Shown piece after piece: positions 22,069-53,699 of a DNA stretch of 64,000 nucleotides. A program made the position numbers and the translations under genes. The stretch comes from Hyphomicrobiaceae bacterium (lineage in GTDB: Bacteria > Pseudomonadota > Alphaproteobacteria > Rhizobiales > Hyphomicrobiaceae), in assembly GCA_016793635.1 (NCBI GenBank), contig JAEUMD010000007.1, positions 111,674 to 175,673 of the forward strand, read 5' to 3'. Below the pieces are notes generated by a model. That model had not been told where the DNA came from. It saw only the letters and a program-made list of their open reading frames with translations, and made no database searches. Within the stretch, counting starts at the first letter, position 1. Each line of letters opens with the position of its first letter.

Positions 22069-22078
22069 CGGCGCGTCC

Positions 22079-29050: not shown

Positions 29051-29067
29051 CTCCACCCACTCCACAA

Positions 29068-29095
29068 GATCCGACGGATACGATCCGACGGATAC
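29068..29095. repeat. 14-bp perfect tandem repeat
   Basis: GATCCGACGGATAC occurs twice without a gap. Each unit itself contains the near-palindrome ATCCGACGGAT (ATCCG-A-CGGAT), so the pair makes a two-site array of an 11-bp palindrome, a shape typical of operator pairs. Confidence 0.85.
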
Positions 29096-29239
29096 GGCTC
29101 GATTAGGCTTGAAGAACGAGCGTTGCTGCCCCCGGCTAGGCCCCTACAGCCCGAGCACAAACTGAATCGAAGACACACTTGCAGTGACGGCCGGTATACG
29201 CTGCGGGCAACAGCTGTAATCGAGAACATCGGAAGATCC

Positions 29240-36493: not shown

Positions 36494-37015
36494 ATGCGTA
36501 CCAAATCCCAAGCCATGGTCACCCTTCCATCCGAACTCGCACGACACGCCTACCTGCGCTCCCGTCTGCTCGCCGAAATCCCGAACCTCGATGCAGATAC
36601 CCTTGCCGACACGCTCGAAGGCATGACCGACCTGCACGAAATGGTGGCCGAGGTCATCCGGTCGGCGCTCGATGACGAGGCGCTGGCCAGCGGACTCAGC
36701 ACCCGCCTTGCTGACATGAAGGCGCGGCTCGAGCGGCTCACCCAACGCGCCAAACGCAAGCGGGCGCTGGCCCTCAACGCCATGGAGGAAGCGCAGATTT
36801 CGAAGATCACGGAAGCGGACTTCACCGCCTCCCTGCGCCACGGCAGCGTGACACTCGAGGTCACCGCCGAGGAGCAGATCCCTCCGGACTACTGGCGACC
36901 GCAGCCGGCTAGGCTTGATCGCCAGGAGTTGCTTGTCGCTTTGAAGGCTGGAGCGGTGATCAACGGCGCCTACCTCGCTTCACCGCAGGCGCAGCTTAGC
37001 GTGAGGGCGAAGTGA
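36494..37015 (+). CDS. Siphovirus Gp157-like protein
   Basis: 173 residues from an ATG with GGAG nine bases upstream. The long central coiled coil (ARLERLTQRAKRKRALALNAMEEAQISKITEADFTASLR) and the ending IPPDYWRPQPARLDRQELLVALKAG..INGAYL match the Gp157 family, which in streptococcal phages has been linked to phage-resistance phenotypes and elsewhere lies beside single-strand annealing proteins. It is coupled to the Rad52 gene by a TGATG overlap. Confidence 0.85.
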   Translation: MRTKSQAMVTLPSELARHAYLRSRLLAEIPNLDADTLADTLEGMTDLHEMVAEVIRSALDDEALASGLSTRLADMKARLERLTQRAKRKRALALNAMEEAQISKITEADFTASLRHGSVTLEVTAEEQIPPDYWRPQPARLDRQELLVALKAGAVINGAYLASPQAQLSVRAK

Positions 37016-38172: not shown

Positions 38173-38203
38173 GCCACCGTCGAACTCAACTGGGAGGGCC
38201 CAA

Positions 38204-38758
38204 GTGGCGTCCGAACGACAGATCCGCGCCAACCGGGCTAATGCGAACAAAAGCACCGGGCCCAAGACGATCGACGGAAAGGCCGTGAGCAGCCGGAACT
38301 CGGTGACGCATGGCCTCACCGCGCGGCAAGTTGTCATGGAATGGGAGGATCCGGCCGCATTCGAAACGTTGCGGCAATCGCTACACCAGGAGTTCCGCCC
38401 AGACCGGTCGACGGCATGTAGGCTCGTCGAACACCTTGCCGCGCTTCTGTGGCGCTTGCGCCGATCCGCGGCCTATGAATCCGCGCTGATTACTTGGATC
38501 TCACACCAACAGGCCGAGGCACATGACAGCCGCGGCGTAACGGTGGGGCCTGTTTTCCTCAGTAGCGATCGGCGCGGGCTTCACGAGTGGACCGCGCTCA
38601 GCGCCTCGCCCCAGGGCCAGGATCATCGTCGCACCGGACGGATGCTCGAGTCCGCCATGAGTCGAGCCGATTTGCTGTCGAAGCTAGGGCGTTATGAGGC
38701 CCATCTCATGCGTCAGGTCGCACAGACGATCGCCGAGCTGCGAAGGCTCGCTGGTTGA
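38204..38758 (+). CDS. Hypothetical protein of the ANKxSTGPKT type
   Basis: 184 residues from a GTG with GGGAGGG upstream. The N-terminus RANRANANKSTGPKTIDGKAVSSRNSVTHGLTA is a widespread bacterial motif of unknown function, often found in accessory DNA. The rest is helical (LVEHLAALLWRLRRSAAYE, RYEAHLMRQVAQTIAELRRL). There is no enzymatic motif. It ends five bases before the convergent fcl remnant. Confidence 0.7.
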   Translation: MASERQIRANRANANKSTGPKTIDGKAVSSRNSVTHGLTARQVVMEWEDPAAFETLRQSLHQEFRPDRSTACRLVEHLAALLWRLRRSAAYESALITWISHQQAEAHDSRGVTVGPVFLSSDRRGLHEWTALSASPQGQDHRRTGRMLESAMSRADLLSKLGRYEAHLMRQVAQTIAELRRLAG

Positions 38759-38763
38759 GCCGG

Positions 38764-39750
38764 CTACGGGCTGGATAGGTGGGCTGTCCCACTGGCATGG
38801 TGTTGAAGGTACCAAGCATAGGTCGAGCCTAGCCCGTCTTCCAGGCTGACCTTCGGTCGCCAGCCAAGCGCCTTCAGCTTGTCGCCGCTCATCAACTTGC
38901 GCGGCGTGCCATCGGGCTTCGCGGTGTCATTTCGGATCCGGCCCTCGTAGCCGACAACCTTGCCGACCATCTGCGCCAACTCCTGAATGGTCAGGTCCTC
39001 GCCGGACCCGACGTTGATATGCTCATCCTCGCTGTAGCCCCGCAGAATGGTGAGAAGGGCATCGGCGCAGTCGTCGACGTGCAGGAACTCGCGCCGTGGC
39101 GTGCCGGTGCCCCAGATCACGACCTCGGGGGCGCCGCAGACCTTCGCCTCATGGAATTTGCGGATCAGCGCCGGAATCACATGGCTCGTCGCAAGATCGA
39201 CGTTATCGCCGGGTCCGTAGAGATTAGTCGGCATCGCCGCGACGAAGTCGCAATCATGCTGGCGGCGATAGGCCTGGCAGAGCTTGATCCCGGCAATCTT
39301 GGCTATAGCGTTCCATTAGTTTGTCGGCTCGAGCGTTCCGGTGAGCAGAGCCCTTTCGGCGATCGGCTGCGGCGCGTACTTTGCATAGATGCACGATGAG
39401 CCGAGGAACACGAGCTTGGCGACGCCGGCGTCGAAGGCGGCCTCGATCACACTGGTTTCGATCAGCAAGTTCTGCAGCAGGAAATCCGCCGGATAGGTAT
39501 CGTTGGCGAGGATACCGCCCACCTTAGCGGCTGCGATGATCACCGCGTCAGGCCGCTCTTCGCACATCCAAAGATTAACATCGCGCCGGTCCGTGAGATC
39601 GAGCTTGGCTTTCGGCGCGATCAGCACCTCGCACGGCTCGGCCGACAACCGACGAACCAGCGCCGCACCGACCATACCGCGATGGCCAGCGACAAACACA
39701 CGCTTCCCGCCGAGATCGAATCGCTCTAAGGGCCCTGTGCTTCTGTGCAT
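38764..39750 (-). pseudogene. GDP-L-fucose synthase paralogue with premature stop and lost catalytic Tyr
   Basis: Read through, this is a full-length fcl paralogue of the gene at 21103. The N-terminal 144 residues end at an in-frame TAA (39316-39318) replacing the Glu codon in [12 protein letters not shown]; the remaining 184 codons are open in the same frame. Two codons later the SDR catalytic Tyr (TAC) is Asn (AAC), giving NAIAK. GAG to TAA needs two base changes, so a single sequencing error does not explain it. The product cannot be an active synthase even if readthrough occurred. Confidence 0.85.
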
Positions 39751-39792
39751 GAAGCTTCTAGTCCTCCTGTTCGTAGCGCGTACGCCGGCATC

Positions 39793-40923
39793 TCAATCCC
39801 GGAAAACGAGCTCGCGATAGAGATTCTGTACCGCTGTGTTGCCGCCATCCTGCTCGAGCCGAGCAAGCCGCATGTCAGCTGCCATCATCTCCTTGACCAT
39901 CTCCGCGAGCGTGGTCGTATGCCTCCAGCCGAGCTTGGTACGCGCCTTCGAGCAATCTCCGAGCAACAAATCGACCTCGGTCGGCCGAAAATAGGCCGGG
40001 TCGACGCGAACGACGACCTTGCCCGACTTGGCGTCTGTTCCGATCTCGTTGACGCCTTCGCCCGACCACACGATGCTGCGACCGATCTCCGCGAAGGCCA
40101 GCTCAACGAATTCTCGCACCGATTGCGTCTCGCCCGTTGCTAGCACGTAGTCATCCGCCTCATCTTGCTGGAGAATGCGCCACATGCCCTCGACGTAGTC
40201 GCGCGCATGGCCCCAGTCGCGCTTCGCATCGAGGTTGCCGAGATAGAGGCACTCCTGCAGACCGTGTTCGATGTGCGCGATGGCGCGCGTGATCTTGCGC
40301 GTCACGAACGTCTCGCCGCGGACAGGCCTCTCGTGGTTGAACAGGATGCCGTTCGACGCGTGGAAGCCGTAGGCCTCGCGGTAGTTCACCACGATCCAGT
40401 AAGCGTAGAGTTTCGCCGCCGCGTTCGGCGAGCGCGGGTAGAACGGCGTCGTCTCGCGTTGCGGGGTCTCCTGTACCTTGCCGTAAAGCTCGGAGGTCGA
40501 AGCCTGGTAGAAACGCGTCGCCTTCATGTCGAGAATGCGCATCGCCTCGAGCAGGCGAAGCGTTCCCAACGCGTCCGCATTGGCGGTGTACTCCGGCGTC
40601 TCGAAGCTCACCTGCACGTGGCTCTGTGCGGCGAGGTTGTAAATCTCGTCCGGGCGGATCTTCTGGATGAGACGGATAAGGTTCGTCGCGTCGGTCAGGT
40701 CGCCGTGGTGCAGATGAAACGAAGTATCGCGCTCGTGAGGATCGACGTAGAGCGCATCGACGCGGCTGGTATTGAATGACGATGAACGGCGCTTGATCCC
40801 GTGAACATCATATCCCTTCGAAAGAAGAAGGCGCGCGAGGTACGAGCCGTCCTGACCGGTGATGCCGGTTATACACTCAATACCGTCCTCCACTTGTCGT
40901 TCGATGCGTTGTTGCACGTCCAT
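39793..40923 (-). CDS. GDP-mannose 4,6-dehydratase paralogue, catalytic Tyr replaced by Asn
   Basis: 376 codons, open throughout, and very similar to the gmd at 22079. The nucleotide-binding TGITGQDG and STSELYG are kept, but the YxxxK tyrosine is Asn167 (SPNAAAK instead of SPYAAAK; TAC to AAC). The N-terminus also differs: [10 protein letters not shown] replaces [10 protein letters not shown] and no ribosome site precedes any start there, suggesting a rearrangement joint at about 40870. It is probably inactive, a decaying duplicate; a scaffold or binding role cannot be excluded. Confidence 0.7.
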
Positions 40924-40938
40924 AGCCGACCGTGCGTT

Positions 40939-42222
40939 CTATGGCTTGACCAATACGTCCTGGACGACCCGTTCCCAAGCGGCAACAGCTTGCGAAAGAT
41001 CAAAATGCGATTCAAATGTTGCTCGGGCACGTCGCCCTTGCTCCGCAGCAATTGCAGGGTTCTGTGCGAGTGCCTGGATGGTCGTGGCGAGCGCTGCGCC
41101 ATCCCCCTGTGGGACGGTAGTGCCAAATTTGCTACGAGCGAGAAGCCTCGCGATCTCGCCATTGGCATCGCCGATGAAGATCGCGGCTCGACCGGCCGCT
41201 GCTATGCCGTAAATCTTGCTAGGCACGATCAACCCTTCGAGTTCGGGACGAAGCGTTACCAGATGCACGTCAGGAGCTGAGAGGCTTTGAGCTAGCAACT
41301 CTTCCGGCTGATATGGTTTGACGAGGACCGAAGTCACGCCCTCACGCTCCGCTGCGCGCTTCAATTCCTCAAACTGAGCTCCGCCGCCGATAAAGAGCCA
41401 ACGAATGCGACGCTGTACGCTCCGGTTCAGCGACGTATCAGCTCCAATGGTCTCCGAATTCGCCCACGGCGATCGCTCGATCCGAAGGATTGCGTCCAGG
41501 AACGTCGCGTAATCATGGGCACGGCCGAGATTGCCCGAGTAACCGACGACAAAATCGCCGTCGAGGCCCCACGATCTTTTGAGCGAGTTAGATTCCCGTG
41601 ACACTTGGTGGATCAGCGCACCGTTGGCCCAGTTCGGTACGATGCGGATGCGCTTACGCAAGACGCCGAGGCCGGCGACGTGATCCGCCATGCGATCGCC
41701 CAAGACGACGTTCATGGCGGCGCAGCGCAGAGAGAGATTGCGAGCGGACTTCAGCATGCTGAAAGCTAGCCGGCCAAGCCTGCGGCGGCCGATGCCAAGC
41801 GCGAGTGCCACTTCGGGAAAGATATCCTGCAGCCAATTTACCAGCCGCGCTCCACGCCAAGCCACGATCGGCCAGAGTACAACTGAGAGCATCGGCGGAT
41901 CGGTCTTGACGATGACCACGTCACCACGGCGGACCAGACGGAACAAGGCCCATGCCGCGGATAGATAGAACGTGACGTAATCGACGGCACGCCCAACCAG
42001 CCAGTGCCTGCCAAATCCTGACGTGGCGACGCGATGGACTTCGACACTGTTCAAGGTCTCGCGCGCGGGCAGGCGGGTTTTCGGATTGTCATACCGCAGC
42101 CGCGACGTAATCACCGACACCCCGTGCCCGCGCAGTGCCAATGCGAACGCGATTCCCGAGAGCATCTGGCTCGTTGCCGAGTGGTCGGGATGAAAGAAGC
42201 GATTGATAAATATGATCCGCAA
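40939..42222 (-). CDS. Glycosyltransferase family 4 protein (WbuB-like)
   Basis: 427 residues, GT-B fold. The N-terminal domain starts RIIFINRFFHPDHSATSQML, typical of GT4 transferases using UDP- or GDP-sugars on lipid-linked acceptors. The C-terminal donor site shows VVGYSGNLGRAHD and LEGLIVPSKIYGIAAAGRAAIFIGDANGE with the catalytic Glu region. It likely adds one sugar of the surface polysaccharide at the cytoplasmic membrane. It lies directly upstream of the second gmd on the same strand. Confidence 0.88.
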   Translation of the reverse strand: MRIIFINRFFHPDHSATSQMLSGIAFALALRGHGVSVITSRLRYDNPKTRLPARETLNSVEVHRVATSGFGRHWLVGRAVDYVTFYLSAAWALFRLVRRGDVVIVKTDPPMLSVVLWPIVAWRGARLVNWLQDIFPEVALALGIGRRRLGRLAFSMLKSARNLSLRCAAMNVVLGDRMADHVAGLGVLRKRIRIVPNWANGALIHQVSRESNSLKRSWGLDGDFVVGYSGNLGRAHDYATFLDAILRIERSPWANSETIGADTSLNRSVQRRIRWLFIGGGAQFEELKRAAEREGVTSVLVKPYQPEELLAQSLSAPDVHLVTLRPELEGLIVPSKIYGIAAAGRAAIFIGDANGEIARLLARSKFGTTVPQGDGAALATTIQALAQNPAIAAEQGRRARATFESHFDLSQAVAAWERVVQDVLVKP

Positions 42223-42341
42223 CGGACTAATTCTCAGTTGCTTACACTCGACGAACCGCCCGGGTTCGCCTGAGGCAGATTAGTTTCAGTCATCCGGAAC
42301 AGGTGCCTGGGTGTGGAAAACGGGGAACAAGGCAGCTGACC

Positions 42342-42554
42342 TTGCCCCTCAACGGGACGCTACGACGCGAGGTGCTCAACGCCGAGTGGTTCGCGACGAC
42401 CCGTCAGGCCCAGGTCGTCATCAACACGCGGCTCCGCCAGTACAATCATATCCGCCCGCATCACGCGCTCGGCATGCGTCCACCGGTGCCCGAAACGTTA
42501 CTAGAGAAACCGCAAATCAGCGGCCCAGACCAAGGGGGGAGGATCAGGCTAGAC
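42342..42554 (+). mobile_element. Transposase fragment (IS3-type DDE, C-terminal end)
   Basis: About 70 codons of an IS3/IS481-like integrase core: LNGTLRREVLNAEWFATTRQAQVVINTRLRQYNHIRPHHALGMRPPVPET. The upstream catalytic part is absent. It abuts the downstream edge of the lasso operon and marks the left border of that insert. No terminal inverted repeat was found. Confidence 0.8.
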
Positions 42555-42624
42555 ATCCCGACGACGAACGCAACGCACTACGACACGCATGCAAGGCCGG
42601 AAGAACAAAATGAAATTCACAGCA

Positions 42625-42957
42625 TTAAGCTCCATTGGGCACCACCTGGACTAAACCCTCGGCCACAAGCTCCTCCAGCAGATCACGCGTGTCTAGTCTG
42701 CAAATCTCCGGATCGACATCGAACTCAGCCAACAGCGCACGGCACACCTCTGAAGCTGTCCTGGGCTTATCTAAGATCTCCCAAATGCGAGTCGCAGGAC
42801 CATTAAGTCCGTAATACTTGCCGCGCGCAACGCTGAGCAAGGCCATCTCGTCAATGCCAAGGCTGGCGCTGACAATTTGCGAGTTCCGCGCGTATATCAG
42901 CTTAAGTTCGTCGTGCCCTGGTTTGATGCTTTCCATTTTTTGCTGCCTGGCCATCAC
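42625..42957 (-). CDS. Lasso peptide RiPP recognition element (PqqD family, B1)
   Basis: 110 residues, a single winged-helix PqqD-like domain (VSASLGIDEMALLSVARGKYYGLNGPATRIWEILDKPRTASEVCRALLAEFDVD). In split lasso systems B1 binds the precursor leader and delivers it to the B2 protease and the cyclase. It is the last gene of the minus-strand run, 27 bases after the exporter. B2 lies on the other strand at 50287. Lower GC than the left half of the window fits acquisition. Confidence 0.88.
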   Translation of the reverse strand: MMARQQKMESIKPGHDELKLIYARNSQIVSASLGIDEMALLSVARGKYYGLNGPATRIWEILDKPRTASEVCRALLAEFDVDPEICRLDTRDLLEELVAEGLVQVVPNGA

Positions 42958-42984
42958 GGTGTATCTTCCGCTAAAATTAGCGAG

Positions 42985-44769
42985 CTAGAACTCTCGAAAA
43001 AGCGAATTGTAGCTCGCGAGAACCTCCTCTGTCGTGCCTGATGTCACGACCGTTCCTTGACTTAGCAATACCGCGGCACTAGCCCACCGCAACGATGACT
43101 CGCGGTGAGCTATCACAACAACAGTTGTCGTTTCCAACTCCCTCTGAAGCTTGGCAATAATCCCGATTTCATCGCCAGGACTCAGTGCATTGGTTGCCTC
43201 ATCAAGAACCAAAAGTTCCGGCTTGCGAAGTACCGCACTGGCCAAACGCAAACGTTGCCGCTGGCCACCCGATAGTCTCGCCCCGCGCTCTCCGACAATG
43301 GTGTTGAGACCCTCCGGCTGCGCTCGGACGAGGCTACCTGCCTGCACACACTCAAGGCTGTGCCAGATCTCCTCTTCTGTCGCTTCCCGCGCACCAACGA
43401 TAAGATTGGCCCGGATCGTGTCATGAAATAGGCTTGCATCTTGGGGGACGTAAGCAACCCCGCCCCGCCAACCCGCCCGCCGTGCCGCAGAAATCGGCGT
43501 CCCATCAATCAGAAGCTCGCCCTCATCCGGAACCAGCAAGCCCGCGATTATGTCTGCAAGTGTCGATTTCCCCGAACCCGAAACACCCATAATCGCGAAA
43601 ACCGAGCGCGCGGGAATGGTCAGCGATACCCTTCGTAATACTGGTCCGTGAGAGCTTTGTGGATAGGAAAAGCTTACGTCACGGAGTTCAATGCTCGAAC
43701 CCACGCTGATCCGCTGCCCCTGTACGGCGGGGGCCTCCGCGACAATACGAGCAGAGGTCTCCTGCTGATGTAGACTGTTATAGGCTGGTAACAGACCCAC
43801 CAACGTGCGAAGCGTCGTTTGTACTGTTGTGACCAGCGGCAGAAGCCGAGCGGATATCACAATCAAAAGGACCACTTCCATACTGGGCACGGCGATGACT
43901 CGAATGCCTACATAGACCAAAATAGCCAGGGCGGCCGCCCCTGCGAGATCCTGAAGAAGCTTTAGACGCGCACTGTTTTCCCCGATCGCAACTACTGAAT
44001 GCCGATAGCGGTCTGAGATTTGACCGAAATCGTTCTCTAGCACGCACTCAATGCCAAACGCTTTCGCAAGCTTAACTCCGCTCATGCGAGAGCCCAAACT
44101 CTCATAGAGCCTCTGCATGGCCTCAAGAGAGGACTTGCCATGCCTGAAACCAGAAGCATGAAGCAGTCCAGTCGGGATGGCGAGTAACACGACCACCCCA
44201 GTAATTGTGGCGGTCAACATGGGTGACACAAGGAAAGCCATAGCTATTCCGGCGGCCATCATTACCAGCGCTGAACCAAACATGATAAAACTGAGCACTA
44301 CGCTGCCAACACGCTCCACTAAGTCGGTCAGGGCATGGGTCTGCGTGGCGTGGCTGGCCGTGGTCAGATACAGCCAACTTGCGCGAGAAAATGCGACATA
44401 GACTCGCCGCCGCAGATGATCAACAAGGCCTGCGACATAGTGGACCGAGACTACGGCCGACACGTAGCCCAATAGCGAGCGGAGTCCTATGGCGGCAAAA
44501 AAAACAAGCAGCACGCCTTCCAATTGAAGCCAACCGCCTCCCGCGACCGCAATTCCAGCAAACGCGCCCGAAATGGCACTACCCGTTTCGCTCGCCGGGA
44601 CTACTCCAATCGACACCAACAAGGGGATCAGGGATGCGTAGCTCATCACCTCCATTAGCCCATTCAAAAGCGTCAAAAGGACAAGCGCCAACAGCGTACA
44701 AGGTCGGAACGCTATCACGTTCTTCAAAAAATCGCGGCCTACCTCCCAATTCGTCGGACTGACGTTCAT
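42985..44769 (-). CDS. Lasso peptide ABC exporter (permease-ATPase, D)
   Basis: 594 residues: six membrane segments in the first 330, then an ATPase with Walker A GVSGSGKSTLAD, signature LSGGQRQRLRLA and Walker B LLVLDEATN. McjD-type exporters of this layout pump the mature lasso peptide and give self-immunity. I chose ATG 44769, which overlaps the nucleotidyltransferase stop by four bases (ATGA); a longer frame upstream is antisense-like. No peptidase C39 domain is present, consistent with B2 doing the cleavage. Confidence 0.9.
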   Translation of the reverse strand: MNVSPTNWEVGRDFLKNVIAFRPCTLLALVLLTLLNGLMEVMSYASLIPLLVSIGVVPASETGSAISGAFAGIAVAGGGWLQLEGVLLVFFAAIGLRSLLGYVSAVVSVHYVAGLVDHLRRRVYVAFSRASWLYLTTASHATQTHALTDLVERVGSVVLSFIMFGSALVMMAAGIAMAFLVSPMLTATITGVVVLLAIPTGLLHASGFRHGKSSLEAMQRLYESLGSRMSGVKLAKAFGIECVLENDFGQISDRYRHSVVAIGENSARLKLLQDLAGAAALAILVYVGIRVIAVPSMEVVLLIVISARLLPLVTTVQTTLRTLVGLLPAYNSLHQQETSARIVAEAPAVQGQRISVGSSIELRDVSFSYPQSSHGPVLRRVSLTIPARSVFAIMGVSGSGKSTLADIIAGLLVPDEGELLIDGTPISAARRAGWRGGVAYVPQDASLFHDTIRANLIVGAREATEEEIWHSLECVQAGSLVRAQPEGLNTIVGERGARLSGGQRQRLRLASAVLRKPELLVLDEATNALSPGDEIGIIAKLQRELETTTVVVIAHRESSLRWASAAVLLSQGTVVTSGTTEEVLASYNSLFREF

Positions 44770-46001
44770 GGCATGATTGGCGCTTGTGGTCGCAACGTAC
44801 GATGTACCCAACGCAGTAGCGCCAGCGGCCGTCCAACAATAGCATACAGAAGGCACCATTCCGCTCCGAGCCTCAGGGTGCCCAAGTCTTTGTGATTAGC
44901 GAGATGACGCAGCAGTGCGAAGCCACGAGAGCTCCACGTCTCGGCCAGCCGCACCTCGTCGAACAGTTTTATGACGTCGGGGAGAACGTAAGAAAATTGG
45001 AAATGTCGGCTTTCGCGATCCGGCGCCAGCAACGCCGCCTTAGCGCCACGAACGAGACTGCCAACGGCCTCTCGCTCGGAATTCTTGAAAATGCGGTACC
45101 GGCGCCCCATCAGCTCCTCAAGAAGGACCAGCACAAACTGTACACTCCTCTTGCAGCCTAGCGCCCGTGCGCAATCAAGCACTGCGCCGACCGCCTGCTG
45201 GTCGCGAGCCTCGAATAGACGCGTCAGATCTGCAATCCATTTCATGCGAAAACACATGTCCCCAGCCGCATGACAACAAAGATAGACGGCAAGATGTTCA
45301 GACCCGAGCGTGCAAACGGTCTCCCCACCGATGTTCATCCTTTCTGATTGGGCGAGGAGCTTGTCGAACGAAACCGAAAAGATATACGGATCACTTAATG
45401 GTCTATGGTGTAGCTCCACCGTGGTCCCGCGATCGAAATCAAAGAATTCGTAAGCATTAAGAAGGAGGTGAGCCATGCTCGCTGCCGATTGAGGCAGCCT
45501 CGATCCTGGCGTTATACGCACGTACCCATCGCGACCGAGAACACGTTCTGCTTCAGAATGGTCTTCGGGCGCGACCAAAAGATCTATATCGCTCGAATGC
45601 CTGACCTCTGGGCAGCCCTCATAGAGTTTCAATGCGAGGGGACAACCCTTAAGCACAATAACTGAGACCCCATTAGCTTCCAGTATTCGCACGATGCGGA
45701 TGGTCTCTGCAGTTTGCCTCAAGAATGAAAGGGACTGATCCCGCGCAATCGCCTCTAGACGAATACGTAAGGGATCCGGTAGGCCGTCTACTTCCCCGCT
45801 GGTCACCTTTCGCGCCAACAATCCCAGCACACGATGACGCTCGCCAAGTTCAAGCAATTTGTCAAAATTCGTGTGTCGCGGAAGCACGATGCGCCCACGC
45901 TGCCCATCGGGGCCGCTACAAAGGACAATCTTGGCAAGCAAATCGAATTCGTGAGGTGTCCCCTCAGTGCGAATGAACCGGGGCAACACATCGACCTTCA
46001 C
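44766..46001 (-). CDS. Nucleotidyltransferase family protein (NTP_transf_5) of the lasso cluster
   Basis: 411 residues from a GTG that overlaps the cyclase stop (GTGA). The catalytic acidic pair is in SSDIDLLVAPED (about residues 137-148), preceded by GVSVIVLKGCPLALKLY. This family recurs in lasso clusters that also have a kinase, and in the Bacillus pseudomycoidin system I recall it being tied to glycosylation of the phosphorylated C-terminal Ser. Here it probably adds a further group to the phosphopeptide; the chemistry is not known. Confidence 0.8.
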   Translation of the reverse strand: MKVDVLPRFIRTEGTPHEFDLLAKIVLCSGPDGQRGRIVLPRHTNFDKLLELGERHRVLGLLARKVTSGEVDGLPDPLRIRLEAIARDQSLSFLRQTAETIRIVRILEANGVSVIVLKGCPLALKLYEGCPEVRHSSDIDLLVAPEDHSEAERVLGRDGYVRITPGSRLPQSAASMAHLLLNAYEFFDFDRGTTVELHHRPLSDPYIFSVSFDKLLAQSERMNIGGETVCTLGSEHLAVYLCCHAAGDMCFRMKWIADLTRLFEARDQQAVGAVLDCARALGCKRSVQFVLVLLEELMGRRYRIFKNSEREAVGSLVRGAKAALLAPDRESRHFQFSYVLPDVIKLFDEVRLAETWSSRGFALLRHLANHKDLGTLRLGAEWCLLYAIVGRPLALLRWVHRTLRPQAPIMP

Positions 46002-47950
46002 GAATTAGCGCCCTTCGTCCAGCGAATGAAACGTCCCACCGCAACAGCATACGGCAAAGCCCCACTCAGACGATACATTTGGTTATCGTTGCGGCCATTC
46101 GGCGTTCGCGCCGGCCACTCGTCGAGACTCCGACGAAGGCGTTGCGTATCGATCAACTCAGATACATCTGGATCGGAGCAGAGAATGTCCACTTGTTCTC
46201 GCAGCTGTGGCAGCTGACGCGACATCTGCATGTGCCAATCAGCCTCGGGTTCGCCACGCATGCGATTGGATAGGATCGAATTTGGTAGTCGCCCCGCCAT
46301 CACCCTGCGCGCGAGCCAGCGGGGCACTCCATTGCGCCAATACTGGTCCGGTGGCACACGGAGGCACCACTCGACGAGATGGCGATCACCCAATGGATCC
46401 CGGAAATCGATGCCGTAGAGTGCCCTCACCGAGTTCATCATCTCAGCAGCAACGTAATTGTTATTTGGCGCCAGATAGCGCGCTCTAAACTCGCGGTAGT
46501 CTCCAGTGGGTCGCTGCTCAAGAAATTCGCTCGCAAGCTCTCGTTGAAGATCAAATTTCTGCACCACCTCCGGCCTCAGGAACGAAAATCCTGTGAGGCC
46601 TGGATCAGAACTTCTGTGATGCTTAACCAGTCGATACAGCCTCCAAAGCCAGTCTGGGCCCAACGGCAAGGCTACTCGACTGACAATGGCCCTTGCAAAG
46701 GCGATCGGAGATGGCGCGGTAGCCATGAGTTCACGAAATAAGGCCACGAGGCGCCTCTCGCGAAGGTAGGCAGCAAAGACCTCACTTCCGTCCCAGCTCA
46801 GCGACAGATTGCCCATTCCGCCCCCCAGCAGGACCGTCGCCCCCATTTCCCTAGCCTGACGGAAAATCTGGTGCCGTATATTAAGGTAGCGGGGCAAGAG
46901 CGGAACGGCTGCGCCAACGGCTAAGAAGTCATTAAGACAAAAGTCCCAGGACTGACCAGAATGTCGAATGAAGTTGGAGCCAAGCCTCGGATGCATCGCT
47001 ACGATTTCACGGACATATGGGCCTTCGTCCCCATAGTAACCCACACCGACGCGGCCATCCCAACCCTCCTCCGGAACGTACGTGAACGCTGGCAAGCGTT
47101 CATTACCATCGACAAATTGGAGCGCGGTAATTGCAACTGCTGAAGAATCCAGGCCCCCGGTAAGCTCACAAGCTACTTTGCCCGGAGTGGCCATTCTGGC
47201 CCTAACAGCTCTATCCAAGAGCTCACGGGTAGCCTCGACATACTCATGGTCAGATTTCAAGCGGACAAAAGGGGCCTGATGGTCCAACTGCCAATAGCGT
47301 TCAAATGTAATGTAGGCGCGACCTACGGTCACCATATGCGCCAAGGGAACGTGCTGAACGCCCTCATACATTCCCTCGTTCCCAGCGTAGGCAATATTGC
47401 TGAGGCTGCGGGCAATGACGGCCGGATTAATCCGCCGCTCAACATCGCCGAATGCAAATAGACCATGGACCGATGATGAAACGATCACCCGATCAGGTCG
47501 GCAATGGAGCGACAAAGGATAATACCCGACCCGAGAACGCGCCGCGAAGAGCTTCTGATCCGAACAGTCCCAGACGATCAGTGCAAAATCACCGTCGAGA
47601 TGTTCTGGGAGCGACGAACCCCACCGCTCCCAGCCTCGCATCACGATCCAACTGTCGGATTTGCCAACCAGCCTGGCAGGACTGATGCTTAGTTTTGCCG
47701 CCAGCTCGGCCCTGTTCGAAACCCAACCATCGAACAGAAGAACAAATCGACCATCTCCACCCTCCATGGGCTGCTCGTCGCCGTCGCCGTCGCCTGGAGA
47801 TGCATGCGCATAGACGAGAGCAACAGGGCCATAGATGGCGAGCTTTTGATATTCCTTGCCGTGCGACTTGAGGGAGGCGACAAAGCCTTCGAGGCTGCGC
47901 TTAGGTGGGATCGATCGGTCGCGAAAATAAATCGCCGCAATTCCGCTCAT
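45998..47950 (-). CDS. Lasso peptide macrolactam cyclase (asparagine synthetase-like, C)
   Basis: 650 residues. It is an asparagine synthase B homologue: an N-terminal glutaminase-like domain and a C-terminal ATP pyrophosphatase domain with P-loop ELTGGLDSSAVAI (near residue 265). The N-terminus is MSGIAAIY rather than MCGI, so the glutaminase nucleophile Cys2 is Ser; ammonia release is not expected. This fits a lasso cyclase that adenylates Asp9 and joins it to the core N-terminus. It lies 183 bases after the precursor gene on the same strand. Confidence 0.88.
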   Translation of the reverse strand: MSGIAAIYFRDRSIPPKRSLEGFVASLKSHGKEYQKLAIYGPVALVYAHASPGDGDGDEQPMEGGDGRFVLLFDGWVSNRAELAAKLSISPARLVGKSDSWIVMRGWERWGSSLPEHLDGDFALIVWDCSDQKLFAARSRVGYYPLSLHCRPDRVIVSSSVHGLFAFGDVERRINPAVIARSLSNIAYAGNEGMYEGVQHVPLAHMVTVGRAYITFERYWQLDHQAPFVRLKSDHEYVEATRELLDRAVRARMATPGKVACELTGGLDSSAVAITALQFVDGNERLPAFTYVPEEGWDGRVGVGYYGDEGPYVREIVAMHPRLGSNFIRHSGQSWDFCLNDFLAVGAAVPLLPRYLNIRHQIFRQAREMGATVLLGGGMGNLSLSWDGSEVFAAYLRERRLVALFRELMATAPSPIAFARAIVSRVALPLGPDWLWRLYRLVKHHRSSDPGLTGFSFLRPEVVQKFDLQRELASEFLEQRPTGDYREFRARYLAPNNNYVAAEMMNSVRALYGIDFRDPLGDRHLVEWCLRVPPDQYWRNGVPRWLARRVMAGRLPNSILSNRMRGEPEADWHMQMSRQLPQLREQVDILCSDPDVSELIDTQRLRRSLDEWPARTPNGRNDNQMYRLSGALPYAVAVGRFIRWTKGANS

Positions 47951-48133
47951 CTAGAACAAATCAGCTCTCGAACAAATCAGCGACGGCAGAGCAATCTCGA
48001 AAGACACGTGACGCATTTTTTTTACTATCACGACAAATAACCCACCCAACTACTCGATGCTGAGCTGAGCGCCAAGTAGTTTGTAAATTTCATCGACCGC
48101 GTCGCCTGCGGTCACAGGTCTTAGAGTTCTCGA

Positions 48134-48316
48134 TCACGATTTATGGGAAGGCGTGTTACCACCAGTATCGGTTCTAAGGGCCGCCTTCTGAGCTTTTGTG
48201 ACCTCACTGATGCTGGCATGTGAGATATGCGGGCGAACCCAGGACTTTCGCGGACCCTTCAGCATCCCGCCAGGGCTTTCATTACTTTTCGTGTTGTCCG
48301 ATTTGTCGCGCAACAT
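48134..48316 (-). CDS. Putative lasso peptide precursor (A)
   Basis: 60 residues, ATG with AGGGGG eight bases upstream. The leader has W26-V-R-P29-H-I31, a Trp version of the YxxPxL leader motif read by B1, and ends T40-K41. The predicted core, residues 42-60, is AQKAALRTDTGGNTPSHKS: Thr at -2, Ala1 and Asp9 spaced for a nine-residue macrolactam, and a C-terminal Ser as in kinase-modified paeninodin. It lies between the kinase and cyclase genes on their strand. Conversely, no acidic residue exists for cores starting at Gly52 or Gly53. The core sequence is one I do not recognise. Confidence 0.75.
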   Translation of the reverse strand: MLRDKSDNTKSNESPGGMLKGPRKSWVRPHISHASISEVTKAQKAALRTDTGGNTPSHKS

Positions 48317-48319
48317 CCC

Positions 48320-48367
48320 CTACCCCCTATAAAAAAGCACCCTCTTGACCAGAGACTTATCAGTCAT
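48320..48367 (-). CDS. 15-codon upstream ORF in the lasso precursor leader
   Basis: ATG with AAAGGAAC upstream, then MTDKSLVKRVLFYRG and TAG. The stop is one codon before the precursor ATG and in the same frame, and the Arg-Gly-stop codons form the precursor's Shine-Dalgarno. Translation of this short frame would bring ribosomes to the precursor start, a possible coupling device. It could equally be chance. Confidence 0.3.
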   Translation of the reverse strand: MTDKSLVKRVLFYRG

Positions 48368-48437
48368 CTGAGTTCCTTTTTTATTCAATCAGAAACGCGA
48401 CAAGTCCGCCAGCGACCTAGGGTTGTGTGCGCGTCTG

Positions 48438-49352
48438 CTAGTTGTTTTGAAGATGCTCGAGAAGGGTATCAACCTGCTCTTCCGCCTCGGTAATCCGCAT
48501 GGACCTGTGAAACTCAAACATGCTGACTTGCGGGATGAGACGGCTCGCGAAGGTGAGGAACGCCCGTTCCGACCCGAACGCATCAATGAGGCTTGGTCGA
48601 TAAACATTCTGCCGTAACATCATCATCGCACTAAACTTTGGCAGCGGGACCAACTCTGGAGAGCCCGATTCCGGCGACATCCAACGTAGCACATACAGAT
48701 TCCGCAACGGAACATCATGCGTCTCGAACTGCCCCTTTACCTCCAGACGTAATTTGCTGTCATCAGGCGTGTCAATCTGCGCGACACTAGCCCCGAGCCC
48801 AGCCAAGGCGAGGGAGTCGGGCCACAATTTGAGCAAGGGGACACCCGGTACTGCTACGATCGCGCCAAAGCTATTCTCCCGAATGACCATCACGTCATCG
48901 GAGACTAGACGGTATCCTCGGCGCATCAGCATCGCAGCCAATGTAGACTTCCCTGCGCCCGAGTGGCCCAAAAATCCCGCGCAAACGCCATTGCGTTCGA
49001 AGGCGCTGGCATGAAGCGGAACAAGCCCGCGCTGATGCAAGATTGCGCCGAGCGCTGAGCCAAGCAGATAAAGGCGCACCGCTCCTGGGTCCGCCTGCGG
49101 CAGAGGATCAACGACAATATTCTGACCGTCTCGGGCAAGATATCGGCCGGTGCCCGCAATCTCAAATAGAGCGGACCGGCCCTTCACCTCATAACCGTCC
49201 ACAACCCAGCAACCGGGCGATCCAGAGTCGCCAGCAACGTTCCCGATACGAATCGTAACATCCAGTGCTGATGGATTGACGGCCGATGGCAGCTCGGCAA
49301 GCTCAATGTCAGAATCAATTGTTAAGCCATGGACGCGGTAGTAATATGGCAT
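48438..49352 (-). CDS. HPr kinase-like lasso peptide kinase (K)
   Basis: 304 residues. The kinase core has Walker A GHSGAGKS (129-136) preceded by LVPLHASAFERNG, and the acidic site RLVSDDV (148-154), as in HPr kinase/phosphorylase domains. In paeninodin-type clusters this enzyme phosphorylates the C-terminal Ser of the precursor, and the precursor next door ends in Ser60. The N-terminal part (about 1-90) is a beta-rich family extension. It is first in the minus-strand unit, 121 bases before the precursor. PTS function is unlikely, as no HPr is nearby. Confidence 0.88.
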   Translation of the reverse strand: MPYYYRVHGLTIDSDIELAELPSAVNPSALDVTIRIGNVAGDSGSPGCWVVDGYEVKGRSALFEIAGTGRYLARDGQNIVVDPLPQADPGAVRLYLLGSALGAILHQRGLVPLHASAFERNGVCAGFLGHSGAGKSTLAAMLMRRGYRLVSDDVMVIRENSFGAIVAVPGVPLLKLWPDSLALAGLGASVAQIDTPDDSKLRLEVKGQFETHDVPLRNLYVLRWMSPESGSPELVPLPKFSAMMMLRQNVYRPSLIDAFGSERAFLTFASRLIPQVSMFEFHRSMRITEAEEQVDTLLEHLQNN

Positions 49353-49498
49353 TTACTCGAACCTTCTAGGTCGTGCGGTTTGTCCCTCGTCAACACCTCA
49401 TGCGCAGCGGTATGGGCGTTACGGCTATCGCAAGATAGCTGCGTGTCAATCGGCGTCCAATGTTGACCCCGTATCGCCGTGCAATCTTGATGGAGCGG

Positions 49499-49974
49499 GC
49501 GTCGTCCACTCCGTCAAAATTGCATGCCGGTTCACACGCTGCGCTGCTTCGGTACGCGGGCTGGCGTGTCTGAGCGCCCTTCTCATCGAACGGGGCGTGC
49601 CTTCGCACATACGTTCCGACAATGGCCCCGAATTCGTCGCGTTTGCGGTACGCGAGTGGATCGCGGCGGTTGGCGCCAAGACGACCTACATCGCGCACGG
49701 AAGTCTATGGGAAAACGGCCACATCGAGTCGTTCAATGCCCGCCTGCGCGACGAACTGCTCAACGGTTAGATCTTCTATTCGTTGCGGGAGGCTCGGATC
49801 GCCATCGAAAGCTAGCGCAGGCACTTCAATGCGGCGAGGCCACATGGCTCGCTTGGCTATCAACCGCCAGCGCCCGAGGTGATCGTGCCGGCCTTTGCTG
49901 CATGGCCCGCTGCGTGGTCTCAGACCGCCCCGCCGCCCATGCAGCACCTAGCCGAAGGAGGCGCCATGAACTGA
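49499..49974 (+). pseudogene. IS3-family transposase OrfB remnant
   Basis: In one frame: LLIERGVPSHIRSDNGPEFVAF, then AKTTYIAHGSLWENGHIESFNARLRDELLNG, stop, IFYSLREARIAIES, stop, RRHFNAARPHGSLGYQPPAPEV. The D-D-E residues of SDNGPEF and ENGHIESFN are visible, but at least two in-frame stops and a missing N-terminal half make it inactive. It sits between the kinase gene and the divergent B2 gene of the lasso cluster. Confidence 0.85.
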
Positions 49975-50286
49975 CATTCCATCCGGACCACTCGATGGGA
50001 TCCGGTCAGGTCCTCGCAGGCTCTGAGCATCTTCGAGCGTGCCGGGGCGCGTCGCGACTACCGGCGAAAGGCCGCGGCGACTACGAGTCTGCAATCGTTG
50101 CCCTGAGAGTAAGTTGCACACAATCAAGATTGTAGGTTCCACGAGGATCCTTCCAAAAAAAATAGGTCTTCATTTGGCTTTTTTTAATTGCGCAAAATAA
50201 CGACGTGGGTCTTCATTCACGCGCGCAGACTGCACCTATAGGCCGGGGCGTCACCCCGCTATCGTCAGGCTCCAAGGGAGATTGAG
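49975..50286. other. Gap before the lasso B2 gene, possible promoter
   Basis: 312 bases. The left 120 are GC-rich IS-like debris; the part at 50145-50200 is AT-rich with A8 and T7-type runs and is the most likely promoter for B2. A stop-rich frame content excludes a gene. The AAGGGAG at its end is the B2 ribosome site. Confidence 0.5.
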
Positions 50287-50754
50287 TTGTATACGTGGCA
50301 ATTGTTGCGTCGGTGGATTGACTACGATGAACTGCAGCGTGGGGCTGTGGTCGTGGCGACGTGGAAACTCTTGAAGGCCTATACGGAGCTTCGCACGCGG
50401 AGCATCGACGCCATTTTGGCAGAACTGTCGGCACCGCAGCCGTCAGAGGTTGCCCAAGGGCCCACGCCGGAATCAAGTTTTGACCCCCGCCGTGCTGCAT
50501 GGGCGATTGACGTGGCTGCCCGTCATCTTCCCTGGCGTTCGGATTGCCTAGTCAAAACTCTTGCAGCATTCCGATGGCTGCGCCGCCATGGATTCGCTCC
50601 CCGACTTCATTTGGGCGTTCGGAAATCAGAACGACAACCAACCGTCCTAGAGGCCCACGCTTGGCTGACTCTCGGCGAAAGCGTCTTCATGGAAAGCGAT
50701 GTCAACTTCATTGATCAATTTTCGCCGATCTGGCAGCCCACGAACATGGGTTAA
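50287..50754 (+). CDS. Lasso peptide leader peptidase (transglutaminase-like, B2)
   Basis: 155 residues from a TTG with AAGGGAG upstream. The Transglut_core3 fold is clear: Cys87 in WRSDCLVKTLAAFRWLRRHGF, the family block LHLGVRK, and His124 in LEAHAWLTLG, with an acidic residue following (FMESD). B2 cleaves the precursor leader with help from B1, here predicted after Lys41. It is divergent from the other lasso genes and separated from them by an IS3 remnant, so the operon may have been split by that insertion. Confidence 0.88.
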   Translation: MYTWQLLRRWIDYDELQRGAVVVATWKLLKAYTELRTRSIDAILAELSAPQPSEVAQGPTPESSFDPRRAAWAIDVAARHLPWRSDCLVKTLAAFRWLRRHGFAPRLHLGVRKSERQPTVLEAHAWLTLGESVFMESDVNFIDQFSPIWQPTNMG

Positions 50755-51045
50755 TCTCTGAGCCAATCGTTGATTACGGGGATGGGCTAAACGGCCATTG
50801 ACTGCTGATTTACCATTCCACCGCCGTAAGGCCCACGATCAGTCGACAAGAGGCATTCCGGCTCTCGATCGATGACGGCACGTACCAGTCGCAAAGTCGC
50901 ACTACGGATCTAGACCAGAAATGCCCGCGAACCGTCGCAACGAAGGTTTCTAGAGGCGGCGGTCAATGGCCAAGAGCTGCGTACGACCTGACCGCGTCGT
51001 CGTGACGGCATCACCGTGGCCGGCTCGCCGCAGTCTTCAGCTTTG

Positions 51046-52212
51046 CTAGTTTTTTTTATGGGGTGCACGAAATCCACCTTCGATAAAGGGTGGCTTCTCG
51101 CCACAATCGCGCAACCAGCGATAAAGCTGCATCATCTTCCTTGCTATACCATCCCAACTAAAGTCACGTTCCATCCAAGCACGCCCCCGCGCGCCCATAG
51201 CGCCGCGATCCTCAGGCGACAACGACATCGCGTCTCTCAGCGCCGCAGCCATCGCCTCTCTTCCATGATCAATCCACCAGCCACAACGATGGGTCGCCAA
51301 GCCTGCCCAAGGGGCGCCCTTGGTCGCTATCACGGGCGTACCGCATGCGAGGCTTTCAGCCACTGAGACTGCGAAGCTGTCGGCGCGTGTTGAGAGCGCA
51401 AACACGTCCGCCTGAGCCAAAAGTCGCCACTTCGACTCGCCATAACGCGGCCCGGAGATCTCAACGTGGCTGAGCCCCAGGTCCTGACATAAACGCGTGA
51501 GTTCCTCGCCATGGCCTTTCTCGCTCGGCCCCACGATAAGGAGGCGCCACTTGGGATAATCCAACTCAAGTGTAGCCCATGCCCGGATGAGCTGATCCAG
51601 ACCTTTCAAGGGATGAACGCGCCCCAGCGAGATGACCGTGTGTATCTGTGGACCTGACTCATCGGTTGTGGGTCGAGGGATATCAATACCATACGGAATC
51701 ATCGCAATGGGTTGTTTGAGCCCGAGAGCGCGGATCGCGTCGCATTCGGCCGCCGAAGTTGCGTGGAAGCAACTGACGTCGCGAAGTCCGGCACCTTGAA
51801 CAGTTTGCCAGAACAGCTTCTTCTGGAGAGAGGAAAACTTCAGTGCTTCAGCGCCCAGCATTCCGTGAGGACTCAAAACCAGCGGTCGGTTGGATTCACG
51901 AGCAGCTCTCGCGGCGTAGATACTTGGTAATCTCCACAATCCATGGGCATGGAGCACGCTCGCCTTGGAGCATTTGAGCGCGCGACACATCGCGTGCGAC
52001 ATCCCGAGCTTATCTAAGAAAGGCGCCCAATCCAGATCTGGCTGAAAGCGCCGATCAATATATCCATCGACGTGATGCGAAGCAGTAGGCCCAAGCGAAT
52101 AGAGCTCGACGCTTGTCCCCAATTTCGCCAGAGCACGGCAAAGGCGGGGCACGACGTAACTGGGGCCGGCCGCGTTCGCATCCAAAGAAGAAATCGTGTG
52201 AACACAATGCAT
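51046..52212 (-). CDS. Glycosyltransferase family 4 protein
   Basis: 388 residues, GT-B fold. The N-terminal domain includes VLHAHGLWRLPS and LVLSPHGMLG; the donor domain has ISLGRVHPLKGLDQLI and the E-x7-E stretch VSVAESLACGTPVIATKGAPW. It resembles the transferase at 55277 (shared SPHGML/APHGML and KGxxxLxxA patterns). It presumably builds the surface polysaccharide. The ATG end lies next to an IS5-type terminus. Confidence 0.88.
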   Translation of the reverse strand: MHCVHTISSLDANAAGPSYVVPRLCRALAKLGTSVELYSLGPTASHHVDGYIDRRFQPDLDWAPFLDKLGMSHAMCRALKCSKASVLHAHGLWRLPSIYAARAARESNRPLVLSPHGMLGAEALKFSSLQKKLFWQTVQGAGLRDVSCFHATSAAECDAIRALGLKQPIAMIPYGIDIPRPTTDESGPQIHTVISLGRVHPLKGLDQLIRAWATLELDYPKWRLLIVGPSEKGHGEELTRLCQDLGLSHVEISGPRYGESKWRLLAQADVFALSTRADSFAVSVAESLACGTPVIATKGAPWAGLATHRCGWWIDHGREAMAAALRDAMSLSPEDRGAMGARGRAWMERDFSWDGIARKMMQLYRWLRDCGEKPPFIEGGFRAPHKKN

Positions 52213-52221
52213 GAACTGAGC

Positions 52222-52344
52222 GCGGAAGGATTAGGGTCCGGACTCTTTAGCACCACCACATGACAACGGCGGCAATGCAGAGGGCAGCCATGAAGTTCTT
52301 CACGTTTCGGTCGAAGCGCGTGGCGACGCTGGAAGCGATTTGCA
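52222..52344 (-). mobile_element. IS5-family transposase 3' end
   Basis: On the minus strand: ASSVATRFDRNVKNFMAALCIAAVVMWWC and stop, the usual C-terminus of IS5-group transposases, followed by GAGTCCGGACCCTAATCC, which resembles the terminal inverted repeat of such elements. The rest of the element is gone; it joins directly to an IS3 fragment. Confidence 0.75.
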
Positions 52345-52703
52345 GTAAGGTGGGCTGTCCGAAAGCGATCCGTGTGGACCAAGGAACGGAGTTCGTATCG
52401 CGAGATCTCGACTTGTGGGCCTATACCCACAACGTCGTACTGGACTTCTCCCGCCCCGGGAAGCCGACGGACAACGCCTTCATCGAGGCGTTCGATGGTC
52501 GCCTGCGTGCCGAGTGCCTCAACGCACACTGGTTCATGACGCTCACCGATGCGAGGGAGAAGCTAGAGGGCTGGCGTAGAGACTACAACGAGGCGAGACC
52601 GCATGGAGCGATCGGGAACAAGGTCCCGATGTCGCTGCTCAATCCCGCTGGCGATACCAGCCCGTCAGTGGCAACGAAGGCCGAAAACTCCAGCTTCGAA
52701 TGA
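52345..52703 (+). mobile_element. IS3-family transposase OrfB, 5'-truncated
   Basis: About 118 codons: IRVDQGTEFVSRDLDLWAYTHNVVLDFSRPGKPTDNAFIEAFDGRLRAECLNAHWF and YNEARPHGAIGNKVPMSLLNP, including the second Asp and the Glu of the DDE site. The first half is replaced by the IS5 end, so a reading frame starting at 52260 is chimeric. Not functional. Confidence 0.88.
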
Positions 52704-52711
52704 GGGCACGT

Positions 52712-52893
52712 TGGGGCTCAGACCACAGGACATGATGGTCGCCGGCTTCGACGCCCTCGCCATCATGCAAGCGGGCGGCTGGAAGTCGGCAAACGTGGTG
52801 TTGCGGTATGTGGAGAACGCCGCGACGAAAGAGTTGCATGAGCGCAGGTGGGAGCGACTTGGCGAACCACGGCTTGTGCGGTCATTTCGATGA
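52712..52893 (+). pseudogene. C-terminal fragment of a tyrosine recombinase
   Basis: LGLRPQDMMVAGFDALAIMQAGGWKSANVVLRYVENAATKELHERRWERLG is the end of a phage-type integrase, containing the GGW block and the nucleophile Tyr in VLRYVENA. The rest of the catalytic domain is missing. It follows the IS3 fragment with no clear tRNA or att site nearby. Confidence 0.75.
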
Positions 52894-52895
52894 AC

Positions 52896-53699
52896 TCAGG
52901 GAACGCTCGATCCCGAGATGCGATCGACCCCTTCGCTAGGTACTGCAACGGTACACCAAGCGGCGTCTAAACGAATTGCCTCACGGGACAACGGCTTCCC
53001 GCCATCAAAAAGCACATAGTCCGCGCATGTCAGCAGTTGAGAAACGCTCCCGGCATTCCGGCCGGAAACCTCGCAGACAACGATCGGGCGGGCCTCAGCC
53101 AGCATTAACTTGGCGCCTTGCAGGACCTCTAGCTCAGCTCCTTCGACGTCAATTTTCAAGAGATCGGGTTTCGGGAGCCAAGTCGCCAGTTTGTCAACCG
53201 AAACTGCCATCACGGTCTGCGCCTCGGCGATGCCGCCAGTTTGGCTGTTGCCGTACTCCGCGAGATAATTAGAGGCTCGCGCTCGCCGCGCAATGTTAAA
53301 TGAACGCAGCCCGAAATCCGCAGCTACGGCGACGGGGACGATCGTGAGCCTCGCGCTGGATTCACTCTGTAAGCCGGCGGTTCGTCGCAGAAGCTTGACC
53401 AGCACAACGTCAGGTTCAAACGAAAATATACTCCCCGAAGCACCGGCTCTCGCTGCGGCAGCGACGGAGAACAGTCCTATATTGGCTCCAATGTCCCACA
53501 CCGTGCTTCCAGGCTTAACGAGGTCCTTGGCTAGCTGGAGGAGCGTAGGATCATATTTATCAACCGGCTTGAAAATGGCGCCTAGCCCCCCCGCCGACGA
53601 CATCAAAATGGGCGAGCTGCCAAATTCCGCCGGGAGGCGACGGCGCACGGTCCAATCGCGGAAGAGGTCCTCCGCGATACGTCGCGGCCAAAATAACAT
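52896..53699 (-). CDS. FkbM family methyltransferase
   Basis: 267 residues. The AdoMet motif I is VWDIGANIGLFSVAAA, followed by SFEPDVVLVKLLRR and LLKIDVEGAELEVLQGA. FkbM enzymes O-methylate sugars or polyketides, and in polysaccharide loci usually methylate a glycan hydroxyl. It is two bases from the GT2 gene, so co-transcribed with 53702-55131. A second FkbM lies at 59270. Confidence 0.88.
   Translation of the reverse strand: MLFWPRRIAEDLFRDWTVRRRLPAEFGSSPILMSSAGGLGAIFKPVDKYDPTLLQLAKDLVKPGSTVWDIGANIGLFSVAAAARAGASGSIFSFEPDVVLVKLLRRTAGLQSESSARLTIVPVAVAADFGLRSFNIARRARASNYLAEYGNSQTGGIAEAQTVMAVSVDKLATWLPKPDLLKIDVEGAELEVLQGAKLMLAEARPIVVCEVSGRNAGSVSQLLTCADYVLFDGGKPLSREAIRLDAAWCTVAVPSEGVDRISGSSVP

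Follow-up and report, generated by a model that had tools for sequence, protein, structure and literature searches.

A divergent lasso peptide gene cluster with an HPr-like kinase and a nucleotidyltransferase in a polysaccharide locus of a Hyphomicrobiaceae bacterium

Here we analysed a stretch of 64,000 nucleotides of contig JAEUMD010000007.1 from a Hyphomicrobiaceae bacterium (the window) and found, at positions 42625-50754, an apparently intact gene set for a lasso peptide whose product probably carries a phosphate and a sugar at its end. We consider it likely that the product is a lasso peptide modified at the end of its tail. Judged by its sequences, the cluster is a new and divergent representative of a known kind, namely lasso clusters that contain both an HPr-like kinase and a PF14907 nucleotidyltransferase (NT). 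The feature that makes it more than one further listed cluster is its recurring polysaccharide setting. This setting makes the function of phosphorylated or sugar-bearing lasso peptides testable, the window adding a separate alphaproteobacterial line with such clusters in polysaccharide loci.

An earlier reading made from the sequence alone (the sequence-only reading) had proposed seven lasso genes with intact frames, and this holds: the genes lie where it had placed them, all seven frames are open and of normal length, and they match Pfam and NCBIfam families (Table 1), with the exception of the precursor gene A, which gave no match up to an E-value of 0.1. Read along the minus strand the order is K, A, C, NT, D and B1, while B2 is divergent from these six genes and has a TTG start with AGGGAG upstream. 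Plausible ribosome sites were recognised by eye for A, K and B2, the true start of D may be the inner ATG at 44769, and B2 is the sole Transglut_core3 match in the genome at an E-value of 0.001. The HPr-rel-A models TIGR04352 and TIGR04353 did not reach their cut-offs (kinase, 42 of 200 bits; PqqD protein, 29.2 of 35 bits).

The precursor has a leader of the form WVRPHI...VTK and a predicted core of 19 residues, AQKAALRTDTGGNTPSHKS, in which Thr(-2) and Lys(-1) are followed by Ala1, Asp9 and a tail of 10 residues (TGGNTPSHKS) closed by a final Ser; a ring joining Ala1 to Asp9 is predicted from these letters. Thr at -2, the 19-residue core, Asp9 and the C-terminal Ser had all been given by the sequence-only reading, and their combination exceeds chance by two approaches. 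A profile made from 26 precursors of other loci, leaving out that of the window, ranked A first among the 770 window frames (E = 7.3e-05; next 0.041) and first of five matches in the whole genome (E = 0.0285; next 0.173). A motif combining the leader, Thr(-2), a small first residue, Asp or Glu and the final Ser was found in one of the 770 window frames and in none of 29,344 frames from 30 simulated windows; since this motif was drafted after the family had been seen, the profile is the fairer test. A has the features that define precursors of lasso clusters (leader motif, Thr(-2), and Asp or Glu at core position 7-9). The core had been called unfamiliar, and so it is as far as the search reached: its letters occur in the main text of no paper searched, the search covering papers and not lasso collections such as that of RODEO.

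Examination of the enzymes identified the catalytic residues expected of their families. In K the set H114, K135, D152 and D153 is kept, being invariant across alignments of 14 and of 27 kinases; passages of two papers describe this His-Lys-Asp-Asp set as required by mutation (PMC9266682) and as conserved (PMC10368454). The retention of this set, together with the final Ser of most precursors from kinase loci (see below), supports a kinase-type lasso cluster, as proposed earlier, as the best interpretation. The structure model of K (predicted local distance difference test score, pLDDT, 93.9) was confident and had PEPCK at the top of its matches, with HPr kinases appearing from rank 44 onwards. 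In B2, Cys87 and His124 are kept and invariant in 10 rows, and the B1/B2 pair is present with its peptidase residues, while C groups in the tree with cyclases of other lasso loci. NT keeps K118, G119, D138, D140 and H198, invariant in 22 rows, and its model (pLDDT 77.3) gave modest to weak matches to nucleotidyltransferase folds, one of them at an E-value up to 0.001 (4.9e-04), with ANT(2''), LnuA and FKRP further down. FKRP joins a sugar phosphate via a phosphodiester.

Table 1. Coordinates of the lasso genes, their neighbours and comparable genes of other loci (window positions unless a locus is given)
Feature	Coordinates	Strand	Basis or remark
B1, PqqD-like recognition protein, 110 aa	42625-42957	-	PF05402, 67 bits
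D, ABC exporter, 624 aa as longest frame	42985-44859	-	ABC_tran, ABC_membrane
NT, nucleotidyltransferase, 411 aa	44766-46001	-	PF14907, 174 bits (cut-off 31.2)
C, Asn-synthetase-like macrolactam cyclase, 650 aa	45998-47950	-	Asn_synthase
A, lasso precursor, 60 aa	48134-48316	-	profile made without A; motif search
K, HPr-kinase-like peptide kinase, 304 aa	48438-49352	-	PF07475, 29.2 bits (under cut-off 33.3)
B2, Transglut_core3 leader peptidase, 155 aa	50287-50754	+	PF13471, 82.5 bits; NF033537, 75.3 bits (cut-off 33)
GT4a, neighbouring glycosyltransferase	40939-42222	-	72% identical relative beside unrelated lasso cluster in congener
GT4b, neighbouring glycosyltransferase	51046-52212	-	46-47% identical relative in G760 polysaccharide locus
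Transposase (rve_3) fragment at B1 edge	42303-42806	+	
Transposase (rve_3) fragment between K and B2	49597-49770	+	
Transposase (rve, rve_3) fragment beyond neighbouring glycosyltransferase	52260-52703	+	
Sulfotransferase beside lasso kinase	L042:7476-8357; L043:7994-8896; L053:14416-15252; others		PF00685

Starting from the genes, frames, catalytic residues, precursor family and neighbourhood as observed, we infer every chemical step from known families. B1 would bind the W-x-x-P part of the leader and present the precursor. Before folding, K would add one or more phosphates to a Ser, with Ser19 the most likely site. B2 would cleave after Lys(-1), guided by Thr(-2), and C would close the ring between the Ala1 amino group and the Asp9 side chain; NT would then put a sugar on the phosphate, as PsmN does in pseudomycoidin, and D would export the product. 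Because the window has both a kinase and a nucleotidyltransferase, a lasso peptide with phosphate and hexose on Ser19 is to be expected. The nucleotidyltransferase had been listed earlier without an interpretation of its role. By the pseudomycoidin precedent it should add hexose to the phosphate that would sit on the last Ser, a predicted mass shift of +80 plus 162 or 324. Calculated monoisotopic masses are 1938.9871 for the linear core, 1920.9766 for the unmodified lasso, 2000.9429 and 2080.9092 with one and two phosphates, and 2162.9957 and 2325.0485 with one phosphate plus one and two hexoses.

The precedents for these steps are described in passages of published papers. PadeK acts on the linear precursor, phosphorylating its last Ser, and ThcoK and SyanK add several phosphates (PMC9266682). 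In pseudomycoidin of Bacillus pseudomycoides, PsmK phosphorylates and PsmN puts one or two hexoses on the phosphorylated Ser (PMC9266682, with which PMC8498205 agrees), a host enzyme acting after nucleotidylation being given as possible for the hexose step (PMC9266682). The window resembles this system in its kinase, in its C-terminal Ser as the predicted site and in the nucleotidyltransferase gene within the cluster that marks clusters as pseudomycoidin-like, but differs in phylum and core, the comparison being one of published descriptions. The kinase cluster of Sphingobium yanoikuyae, in which the last Ser is polyphosphorylated, shares the proteobacterial split of B1 and B2 along with C, K and D (PMC5067487, PMC9266682); its order, however, is A-B1-B2-C-K-D, and the passages describing it mention no nucleotidyltransferase. 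The bsf cluster of Bradymonas sediminis has A, B1, B2, C, D, K and a predicted nucleotidyltransferase like the window, but Ile(-2) and a Gly1-Asp8 ring (PMC10368454). Paeninodin-type clusters of Bacilli share with the window the W-x-x-P leader, the HPr-like kinase, the NTP transferase and the polysaccharide setting (they sit in capsule loci, and their role is called unknown); they are, however, called restricted to Bacillota (PMC13381572), whereas the cyclase of the window forms a clade with those of two genomes of its own order.

The same source describes the LPP family, which shares the kinase, the NTP transferase, the recognition protein and the exporter and likewise sits in polysaccharide loci (PMC13381572), and the product could in principle be a linear phosphopeptide of this kind. 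We regard this as very improbable, as the core LPP set comprises a signal-peptidase-like enzyme and no cyclase, whereas the window has a cyclase and a B2 peptidase and the core has an Asp9 at ring distance; no search aimed at a signal-peptidase gene in the window was made.

Kinase searches detected 3 of 100 relatives including the genome itself, the others being one of three congeners, none of 56 further members of the family and one of 40 of the order; in the class the count was 25 of 385 genomes, its own included. Cyclase neighbours were sought in samples of 397 genomes of the order and 398 of the phylum, and the nearest found were those of G662 (37% identity), G760 (35%) and G1134 (35%). 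A quick tree of 72 cyclase rows united the window with G662 and G760, both genomes of the order of the window, in a supported clade (98 in the Shimodaira-Hasegawa-like approximate likelihood ratio test, SH-aLRT); the kinase tree did not place the kinase of the window. One scan of viral contigs with one query gave no cyclase relative, and plasmid records gave only matches below 60% identity (324 records), the best among the matches listed being 31.8%.

In all, 71 loci including the window were annotated; 52 loci came from a scan of named genomes with a single peptide pattern and are hence a sample. Precursors were sought by pattern and iterated profile, the final Ser being part of neither, and 58 distinct ones were parsed (profile E-value up to 0.05; L068, a copy of L053, was dropped beforehand). 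Final Ser was present in 44 of the 54 kinase-locus precursors, window included, or in 42 of 52 without the two (L039, L106) that had been added by hand from lists of Ser-ending frames. By type of locus the values were 27/27 for kinase plus sulfotransferase, 4/6 for sulfotransferase plus NT, 8/14 for kinase plus NT and 5/7 for the rest. The window falls into this last group, listed as having a kinase and nothing else, since a different name had been used in scoring its NT. The parser returned Thr(-2) in 45 of the 54 and rings of 8 (39), 9 (14) and 7 (1) residues, counts that lean towards Thr(-2) and the ring of 8, which it favoured; the core of L098 was visibly misparsed, its last residue being correct.

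Several observations weigh against the modified lasso peptide proposed here, some of them concerning its site of modification. BsfK phosphorylates Ser3 according to a passage of PMC10368454, which speaks against the last Ser as a rule. Among the kinase plus NT loci other than the window, that is, in its own class, only the 8 of 14 precursors given above have the final Ser and six lack it. In the sister cluster of G760 (L130 and L137) the kinase keeps its motif, yet Cys and Pro are the last residues of the two likely precursors; of these, whose cores hold two Cys each, L130:14863-15003 is a profile match (E = 0.00086) and L137:15193-15456, adjoining B2, was chosen by eye from a motif list. The peptide might thus be phosphorylated or glycosylated elsewhere (Ser16 or a Thr), or remain unmodified. 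We hold this to be unlikely in view of the final Ser in more than four fifths of the kinase-locus precursors and in every precursor whose locus has kinase and sulfotransferase and lacks NT. Very large frames lie between the halves of the G760 lasso cluster (L130:15141-19424 and L137:9104-15181), the first with cadherin-like and RTX domains.

Other unfavourable points concern the genes themselves. C scored 232 bits against NF033535, the best lasso model of NCBIfam, whose cut-off is 525, and K fell below that of PF07475 (Table 1); with both under curated cut-offs the cluster is best taken as a divergent line, and the highest cyclase identity found was the 37% mentioned above. The core tail is free of aromatic residues apart from His17, and a steric lock is not obvious. 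The PP-loop of C reads TGGLDSS, with Thr in place of the usual Ser, and a transposase remnant separates B2 from the operon. These last two points would fit a decaying lasso cluster, one with open frames and no product, in which B2 was split off by transposon insertions and the PP-loop of C altered; so would the three transposase fragments in and around the cluster and the damage to neighbouring duplicate genes, where Asn replaces the Tyr of the PRSPYAAAK motif in the second GDP-mannose dehydratase (GMD, 39793-40923) and only a fragment of 156 residues is left of the second Fcl (38764-39234). We nevertheless consider decay of the lasso genes improbable: the seven frames are open and of normal length, the ribosome sites seen by eye are plausible, the catalytic residues are kept, the PP-loop Thr recurs in one other of the 71 cyclases, and G760 likewise has its B2 and K at a distance from C. 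That the Thr marks a dead cyclase was considered and dropped as unsupported, given that other cyclase. Full-length copies of GMD and Fcl are present at 21103-23206.

The location of the lasso cluster inside a polysaccharide locus, another claim of the sequence-only reading, was borne out by glycosyltransferases on both sides, sugar-nucleotide genes below and an FkbM-type methyltransferase above. Kinase-bearing lasso clusters in polysaccharide surroundings, like that of the window, were found in G001 (L040), G662 (L129) and G760, and the two nearest cyclases found, those of G662 and G760, likewise lie in GDP-mannose/fucose polysaccharide loci. The G662 cluster is flanked on one side by a glycosyltransferase and, at a greater distance, a flippase, and on the other by genes for GDP-mannose dehydratase, phosphomannomutase and ManC; the L129 stretch yielded no NT. 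In G760 sugar epimerases lie between C and D, and its locus resembles the window in UGD (54% identity), GMD (75%, to the damaged copy of the window) and Fcl (64%, to the fragment). G1134 (L131) matched none of six marker profiles and none of its flank genes resembles a polysaccharide protein of the window. In the congener G001, the relative of GT4a starts about 230 bases from the NT of a kinase plus NT lasso cluster whose cyclase is 26% identical to that of the window and stands elsewhere in the tree. Two unrelated clusters of one type thus appear, by sequence, to share one glycan neighbour. The G001 contig has only 8,925 bases and its assembly is rated 94% complete and 7% contaminated, but two flanking stretches match window DNA (75% and 86%), which argues that the contig belongs to the congener.

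Counting neighbours over the annotated loci gave results that depended on the method. With iterated profiles, glycosyltransferases were found near 8 of 20 kinase plus NT loci (window not counted) versus 2 of 36 sulfotransferase loci (P = 0.0024), or near 7 of 19 (P = 0.0054) once L130, which also gave a seed, was removed; these counts ignore ancestry, several kinase plus NT loci being cyanobacterial, and miss the G001 gene, the frame of which runs off the contig. On the opposite side, an earlier, weaker test with GT4 and GT2 profiles (leave-one-out recall 4/5 and 0/3; glycosyltransferases at 5 of 62 kinase loci) gave no difference between NT and sulfotransferase loci (3/25 versus 2/29, P = 0.65), and sugar-nucleotide, flippase and ManC markers were not enriched (4/20 versus 12/36, P = 0.36). 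In the first test, which used single-sequence queries, polysaccharide genes lay near 6 of 70 loci, its control recovering just three further window genes. No report of lasso clusters in polysaccharide loci of Alphaproteobacteria was found among the literature matches listed (titles and abstract openings, with most subscription journals outside the search). Given that such clusters recur in polysaccharide loci, a role of the product at the cell envelope or in surface polysaccharide is probable, this being the least certain part of our explanation. The alphaproteobacterial line and the non-orthologous congener cluster beside the same kind of glycosyltransferase point to a link with the glycan itself.

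The kinase loci also include a second type of cluster. A PF00685 sulfotransferase (the name taken from three of them) lies within 400 bases of 37 of 67 distinct kinases, and an NT lies within 9 kb of 26; sulfotransferase alone was found with 32, NT alone with 21, both with 5 and neither with 9 (P = 3e-6). That the two genes exclude each other was considered and is not shown by these numbers, as the types follow the kinase tree with few switches and supported branches hold only two independent pairs. Passages of PMC8498205 and PMC4289311 mention sulfotransferases of lasso clusters and give them no function or assigned step. The sulfotransferase profile had no match in the 64 kb of the window. 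Sulfate activation genes lie at 25808-29499 (a GTPase/adenosine 5'-phosphosulfate kinase fusion by Pfam and a CysD-like frame by look only). Sulfotransferase-type tails are short, often of 6-8 residues, and 9 of 27 have no F, W, Y, H, R or K. The precursors of L070, L074, L080, L042 and L044 have tails of 5-6 residues with no bulky residue (GNGSTS, GATTSS, PTSSS), in which the usual steric plug is missing.

Where a tail has no bulky residue the modified last Ser might serve as the stopper of the thread, which is a guess. It also belongs, with tails such as GNGSTS and GATTSS, to a broader scheme in which the peptide would be made for joining to polysaccharide, the phosphate and sugar on the last Ser forming the link, so that kinase plus NT lasso clusters would decorate surface glycans and kinase plus sulfotransferase clusters would make free, charged peptides. 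We would give this scheme, taken as a whole, little chance of being correct.

The history of the cluster can be approached through its composition and surroundings. The cluster is patchy among relatives, and GC content is 0.53-0.57 at 42.5-49.5 kb, against 0.58-0.64 at 38-42.5 kb and 0.55-0.60 at 50.5-56 kb; no island-framing repeats of 20 bases or more were found in 38000-53500. Patchiness, transposase fragments, damaged neighbours and GC content fit gain by transfer with decay of the neighbours, the lasso frames being open. A transposon end is common to window positions 52615-52726 and L040:43-153 (86% identical), where it sits at the far side of both the window region and the unrelated lasso cluster of the congener. 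At 37012-38172 a protein with a Rad52/Rad22 domain and DUF968 is encoded near a ParB-N/DNA methylase gene (31532-32869), perhaps phage genes.

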